Source of the DNA: Defluviitaleaceae bacterium
GTDB lineage: Bacteria > Bacillota > Clostridia > Lachnospirales > WQUN01
Assembly: GCA_009779755.1 (NCBI GenBank)
Contig: WRDO01000008.1
Coordinates: 1 to 64,000, forward strand
Direction: 5' to 3'
Length of the DNA stretch: 64,000 nt
Numbering within the stretch: the stretch's first letter is position 1; every line of letters begins with the position of its first letter. This document shows, in pieces, positions 10,082 through 10,544 of the stretch. The position numbers and the translations under genes were made by a program. The notes beneath the pieces were generated by a model. The model did no database searches. It was given only the letters and a program-made list of their open reading frames with translations, and was not told the origin of the DNA.

Positions 10082-10440
10082 GTTCGGACATGTCAATATT
10101 AATATGCCCGAACATCCATGGTACACTCACGACGCAGCAAACGACCGAGGCAGTTATGAGCCAAGGGCGGGTTTTGCCATCCCGGGAAGGGGCCTTCGGG
10201 CACCGAAACCGGGCGCACCGCACCACGCCGGCTATTCCTCAAATGTATGCTGTTCCCTGTAACACCCTAACACCGCACCACCGCCAAACCCGCGGAAGGG
10301 GGCAGCGTATCCGGCCAAGAGCTCAGCCGGATATGCCACCCATGTCGCGACACCTTCCAACGGCAAGGCAACCAAGCCCTCATGAGGCAAGATCAACACA
10401 TCGGGTTCCCGGGACCCGCTTATGACAAAATGAAATAATC
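10082..10440. other. GC-rich structured non-coding region, candidate structured RNA of unknown class
   Basis: No convincing protein is encoded here. The sequence forms several helices. GTTCGG/CCGAAC closes 10082-10113. CCGgGCG/CGCCGG encloses a CACCGCACCA loop near 10208-10232. The strongest is a long stem at 10291-10349 built on TATCCGGC/GCCGGATA (10308-10315, 10326-10333). A CGGGT/ACCCG hairpin lies near 10401-10417. The 11-mer CACCGCACCAC occurs twice (10216-10226 and 10271-10281). I looked for the signatures of RNase P RNA, tmRNA, SRP RNA and 6S RNA on both strands and did not find them. Strand is undecided: a terminator-like hairpin follows on the plus strand (10455-10513). Confidence 0.45.
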
Positions 10441-10454
10441 AACGGTGACCAAAT

Positions 10455-10513
10455 CAACGCGCTATATATGACTTAACGTAGCAAAGGTTAGGTTTTATAT
10501 AGTGCGTTGTTTT
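10455..10513 (+). terminator. Long inverted repeat with T-run, possible terminator of the structured region
   Basis: CAACGCGCTATATA (10455-10468) and TATATAGTGCGTTG (10496-10509) pair over 14 positions with one G-U, around a 27-base loop. TTTT follows immediately (10510-10513). The long loop weakens the call. If real, it would end a plus-strand RNA covering 10.1-10.5 kb. Confidence 0.4.
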
Positions 10514-10544
10514 CGTGCGCATTGTTATTTTAACGTTAAACTAT

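Follow-up and report, generated by a model that had tools for sequence, protein, structure and literature searches.

A multicopy structured RNA family within one bacterial family, with palindromic loops predicted to mediate self-association

We found a gene for a structured RNA of about 380 nt (about 10134-10513) on the plus strand of a 64,000-nucleotide stretch of Defluviitaleaceae DNA (the window, meaning that stretch at its full length), equipped with its own predicted promoter and predicted intrinsic terminator. Comparison of its relatives shows that such genes are dispersed within one bacterial family as whole transcription units, with a predicted promoter, 5′ domain D1, linker, 3′ domain D2, terminal hairpin D3 and terminator. 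We regard it as probable that these constitute a new multicopy RNA family whose members self-associate via palindromic loops and act in trans, where both the assembly and the function are what we infer from sequence. The parts of the window copy are given below, with R1 denoting a covariance model of the 5′ domain built from 12 sequences and R2 a covariance model of D2.

10082-10113, no strand assigned: palindrome-like promoter element (GTTCGGACATG...CATATGCCCGAAC), common to the own-genome copies C16 and C3 and, slightly altered, C37
10119-10127, plus strand: predicted extended -10 promoter box, TGGTACACT
10132-10256, plus strand: 5′ domain D1, nested helices closed by GCAGC (10134-10138) and GCUGU (10249-10253); R1 match of 114.4 bits, with covariation
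10257-10281, plus strand: C-rich linker, unlike in length among copies, containing the second CACCGCACCAC
10279-10368, plus strand: 3′ domain D2, a GGAAGG/CCUUCC stem enclosing a long hairpin; R2 match of 73.6 bits
10319-10324, plus strand: GAGCUC, a palindrome within the apical loop of D2 and predicted self-kissing site 1, from loop palindromes across copies
10376-10388, plus strand: small hairpin GCC-CUCAUGA-GGC with palindrome UCAUGA (10380-10385), paired by eye
10402-10418, plus strand: terminal hairpin D3, CGGGU-UCCCGGG-ACCCG, with palindrome CCCGGG (10408-10413), predicted self-kissing site 2 from varying stems and a palindromic loop
10455-10513, plus strand: predicted intrinsic terminator, a long stem (fold -28.3 kcal/mol) followed by TTTT (10510-10513)

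Eight own-genome copies, including that of the window, have one unit in common when oriented alike, and the TGnTAnAnT box that precedes it is invariant. Across the wider set, TAnnnT occupies the predicted -10 position in 76 of 79 copies, and the extended form is found in 33 of the 79, against 23 of 1283 background 27-mers. The palindrome-like element ahead of this box is a candidate operator. Repeated TTCCnGGAA-type palindromes lie upstream of the promoters of G029 copies (e.g., L023, L030), and other genomes feature different operator-like elements, as if the copies of one genome were all co-regulated. At the other end, the terminator test was passed by 56 of 72 copies versus 24 of 60 control stretches, a modest contrast. 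Counted on the plus strand, G-U cells outnumber A-C cells (120 versus 51); A-C cells are what G-U pairs would become if the RNA lay on the other strand, and the RNA is therefore read from the plus strand. A protein-coding reading of the region was rejected, in agreement with an earlier note on this DNA that saw no plausible protein here: the 111-aa ORF at 10090-10425 has its start upstream of the -10 box, and in 44 of 78 copies no plus-strand frame is free of stops across the same stretch.

Also present are the block of high GC content, the three-part stem at about 10291-10349 and the plus-strand terminator-like inverted repeat with TTTT, from which that note had read a structured RNA. Fold energy alone is unremarkable (plus strand z -1.62, with 8 of 100 shuffles as good, which is not significant; minus strand z -0.36), and the case for structure was accordingly built from relatives, namely the ten copies of the genome and the covariation among homologues that the note had proposed to look for. 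A plain MAFFT alignment, which is not structure-fitted, yielded 27 nested pairs with RNAalifold, 10 of them with both sides changed. Among the 82 matches (81 distinct) aligned by R1, an alignment that is fitted to its own structure, 94.5% of cells are paired versus 85.4% in shuffles and 29-41% in slid structures, cells with both sides changed number 216 versus 68, and the covariation score is 0.315 versus 0.149, with none of 500 shuffles as high. Compensatory base-pair changes, the mark of a structured noncoding RNA, are seen in helices 1, 2, 7 and 8, and together these data show strong base-pair covariation in the RNA family. Along the molecule, a nested 5′ domain is followed by a C-rich linker of variable length and sequence, then by a 3′ hairpin domain and a terminal hairpin; the total comes to 215 to 306 nt among 24 aligned copies. 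R2 recovered 71 matches in 82 sources, or 69 once a partial match in the window, in antisense orientation, and one truncated match are set aside; in the own genome, its nine matches fall at nine of the ten D1 loci and nowhere else. The C23 copy (L017 5466-5587) and the G004:C44 copy (L142 533-654) display D1 with no D2 match, and may represent a subfamily with a different 3′ part.

The earlier note also drew attention to a repeated C-rich 11-mer. Two exact copies of CACCGCACCAC do exist (10216-10226 and 10271-10281; 0.03 expected in the window), though they do not amount to a conserved repeat: in the copy alignment, a conserved portion of D1 contains the first, which is partly helical, and the variable linker contains the second. 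The suggestion made from it, of a small regulatory RNA that uses C-rich loops to pair with ribosome-binding sites, gains something from the C-rich linker and from the GGAGGTG-type ribosome-binding sites on ORFs behind some copies. We consider it very improbable, as the C-rich stretch differs among copies in both its length and its sequence, and one 11-mer is partly within a conserved D1 helix; the conserved features of the family are instead its helices, internal loops and palindromic hairpin loops.

With the region as query, the whole own genome (3.10 Mb, 91 contigs) yielded eight more copies of at least 100 bases that are 73-89% identical, besides two weaker pieces. The same DNA query matched seven of 61 genomes (own and relatives), all of the same family, and R1 gave 100 matches in nine of 38 same-family genomes, Defluviitaleaceae bins included: 10 in the own genome, 42 in G029, 18 in G034 and 3 to 6 in each of six others. 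With stricter filters, R1 had no matches outside the family in 116 genomes sampled across the order or in 291 sampled across the class. A pattern scan of 84,980 named species genomes returned 20 stretches from four genome bins, all called Defluviitaleaceae; 589 metagenome-assembled genomes have been reported from higher termites, and the bins bearing the RNA presumably belong to this set. No match to the RNA was found in phage records, in plasmid records or, with two patterns, in viral contigs. This dispersal, with up to 42 copies per genome and many at contig ends, together with homology that begins near the promoter and stops near the terminator, could also be produced by a non-autonomous mobile repeat whose structure serves its spread only. 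That explanation is in our judgment quite improbable, since visual inspection of the ends of 15 copies revealed neither terminal inverted repeats nor target duplications, most copies are 75-95% alike rather than identical, and the helices have undergone the compensatory changes noted above.

An unexpected feature of the family emerged from reading the hairpins: the loops 3′ of D1 contain six-letter palindromes. In 75 copies, 96 of the 287 hairpin loops are palindromic, against 684 of 12,800 shuffled loops (5.3%, 3000 shuffles); at least one such loop is found in 66 of the 75 copies versus 21% of shuffles and at least two in 28 versus 1.3%, while control D1 loops are palindromic in 1 of 115. 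With palindromes permitted to extend by two letters into either flanking stem strand, 65 of the 69 D2 apical loops display one of 6 nt or more (G000 9/9, G004 5/5, G034 16/16, G029 26/26, G016 3/3, G002 4/5, G003 2/3), with the G025 loops (0/2) and some divergent copies being devoid of it. The core palindrome is near-uniform inside one genome and switches between lineages, being GAGCUC in G000 and G004, GGUACC in G034, CGGCCG in G029 and GGAUCC in G016 and G002. All three of its symmetric pairs change between lineages, including the innermost, whose two bases are adjacent and cannot pair with each other in a single strand. Moreover, 64 of 66 copies contain their lineage's palindrome a single time and the remaining two do not contain it, leaving no second identical site in the same molecule. 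Such switching is the hallmark by which intermolecular kissing loops were recognized in the OLE and GOLLD RNAs, an argument that Kretsch and co-authors made for both (PMC12286853). In D3, stem sequences vary between genomes and the loop stays CCCGGG or CACGUG, and 40 of 74 copies have a 5-bp stem capped by a palindromic loop of 7-9 nt, versus 2.9% of shuffles. As copies within a genome share descent, these amount to about four independent D2 and two D3 palindromes, not 69 observations. The CCTCATGAGG of the small hairpin (10376-10388) is invariant in the eight own-genome copies and present in three G002 copies.

Gene neighborhoods point to a link with a small two-gene operon. Downstream of the RNA, at the C37 own-genome copy and in G034, lie ORF A (68-69 aa, without a Pfam match at the cut-off) and then ORF B, a DUF2922 protein (PF11148, E about 1e-8). 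In the 80-copy set used for locus counts, which excludes two weak R1 matches (L092, L093), intact or partial ORF A and/or B lie downstream at 15 loci, mostly about 180-310 nt after D1, and ORFs may be missed at 12 of the 80 loci, where less than 600 nt of sequence follows D1. DUF2922 is encoded in 25 of the 38 family genomes, including all nine that bear the RNA, and is thus broader than the RNA. The main rival reading takes the RNA as a cis leader (attenuator or antiterminator) of the ORF A-DUF2922 operon, with RNA-only copies being fossils that lost their genes. Besides the 15 loci, the worn ORF A remnants behind other copies, among them the degraded ORF A start retained by several G034 copies, fit this, as does the terminator-like hairpin between RNA and ORF A in two G016 copies. 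We deem it unlikely as a full account, for RNA-only copies retain promoter, fold and loops, and many possess strong terminators of their own. In G034, the next gene is often opposite to the RNA (nine copies versus five the same way, among 14 judged by eye from naive ORFs). A leader would account for the copies in operons, yet it leaves unexplained why RNA-only copies are maintained at corresponding positions in two species (L012/L140 and L014/L139, 90-92% identity). The homology among copies of one genome runs from near the promoter to past the terminator, or past the two ORFs.

Most copies are free-standing, and some adjoin glycosyltransferase, resolvase or restriction-modification genes. A glycosyltransferase neighbors the window copy and, by eye, the C37 copy. 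Immediately after the C2 copy is a resolvase-family recombinase (L011 5416-6018), G004 has a like arrangement (L138; resolvase judged from N-terminal sequence), and the C16 copy has a resolvase remnant as its neighbor. A type ISP restriction enzyme immediately follows the C20 copy (L012 576-5405), a YhcG nuclease and HsdM (type I) methylase the C23 copy (L017 5902-8557), and an HsdM-like ORF, by eye, lies downstream of the L142 copy of G004. Relatives of the VWA gene that adjoins the window copy are found in G001, G003 and G004 with a methyltransferase-like ORF (by eye) directly before them and no RNA, which places the window copy at the edge of a segment differing between species. Just before the glycosyltransferase ORF of the window, a 24-bp inverted repeat (10679-10702/10850-10873, 96% complementary) surrounds 147 bp; the same module accompanies the C16 copy beside the resolvase remnant, and may represent either a small repeat or a promoter segment capable of inversion.

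Returning to the self-association reading, we propose that each RNA would bind other copies through two palindromic kissing loops, those of D2 and D3. Two such interfaces would permit dimers or larger homo-oligomers, and copies in one genome, sharing a palindrome, could co-assemble. The ancestral form may have been the 5′ leader of the ORF A-DUF2922 operon, most copies having later become free-standing, trans-acting genes that perhaps provide a scaffold or sink for the small ORF A and DUF2922 proteins. Within this proposal, self-association through the two palindromic loops is the likelier part; trans action of the free-standing copies is a guess, less certain than the self-association, and so is a functional role together with the ORF A and DUF2922 proteins. 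A more specific version, in which a small chromosomal RNA with up to 42 copies per genome forms RNA-only oligomers with itself and its sister copies via both kissing loops, using a code that is near-uniform in one species and switches between species, is advanced tentatively, at somewhat less than even confidence. Natural RNAs that form homo-oligomers came to light recently and unexpectedly, among a few large RNAs. If our reading is true, it adds a small, multicopy homo-oligomeric RNA with four natural versions of its pairing code, in effect a self-recognition code for RNA, and renders self-recognition, cross-assembly and the purpose of RNA-only assemblies directly testable. An RNA family missing from Rfam is gained as well, linked to the uncharacterised DUF2922 proteins.

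As to known systems, the earlier note had found no signature of RNase P, tmRNA, SRP or 6S RNA, and the Rfam scan it suggested bears this out: the Rfam 15 covariance models had no gathering-score match for the RNA or anywhere in the window, a further gathering-score search returned only a tRNA, elsewhere, and ARAGORN found no tmRNA or tRNA in the window. Models of RNase P, tmRNA, SRP, 6S, T-box, group II intron and HEARO, all Rfam families, were not matched. Loose thresholds for the region and five further loci yielded only weak microRNA, snoRNA/sRNA and RAGATH-type matches, which we took as chance. OLE, ROOL and GOLLD, also Rfam families, had no gathering-score match in the window and are absent from those weak matches at the region and five loci. 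No description of the RNA family was found in the portions of literature searched, and the best reading is that it is new and absent from Rfam. It resembles leader RNAs of small bacterial operons in that 15 of 80 copies precede whole or partial ORF A/DUF2922 genes, and differs in that most copies do not and many have their own terminators. With the retroviral dimerization initiation hairpin, described as a GC-rich palindromic kissing loop (PMC4588261), it shares a GC-rich palindromic hairpin loop; unlike that hairpin, it is bacterial and has two to three such loops per RNA, and we claim no shared ancestry. Closest in kind are OLE, GOLLD and ROOL, large bacterial RNAs forming homo-oligomers, where loops that switch sequence yet stay palindromic in OLE and GOLLD have been taken as evidence for intermolecular pairs (PMC12286853). 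Like our family, all three are structured noncoding RNAs, OLE and GOLLD have palindromic loops that switch sequence and ROOL has a variable linker, while the OLE studied is 577 nt (PMC12286853) against about 380 nt for the window RNA. Unlike them, the window family is multicopy in the chromosome, with no Rfam match and none in the viral collection. It does not belong to OLE, ROOL or GOLLD; carrying what appears to be the same palindromic-loop signature of homo-oligomers, it may work like them.
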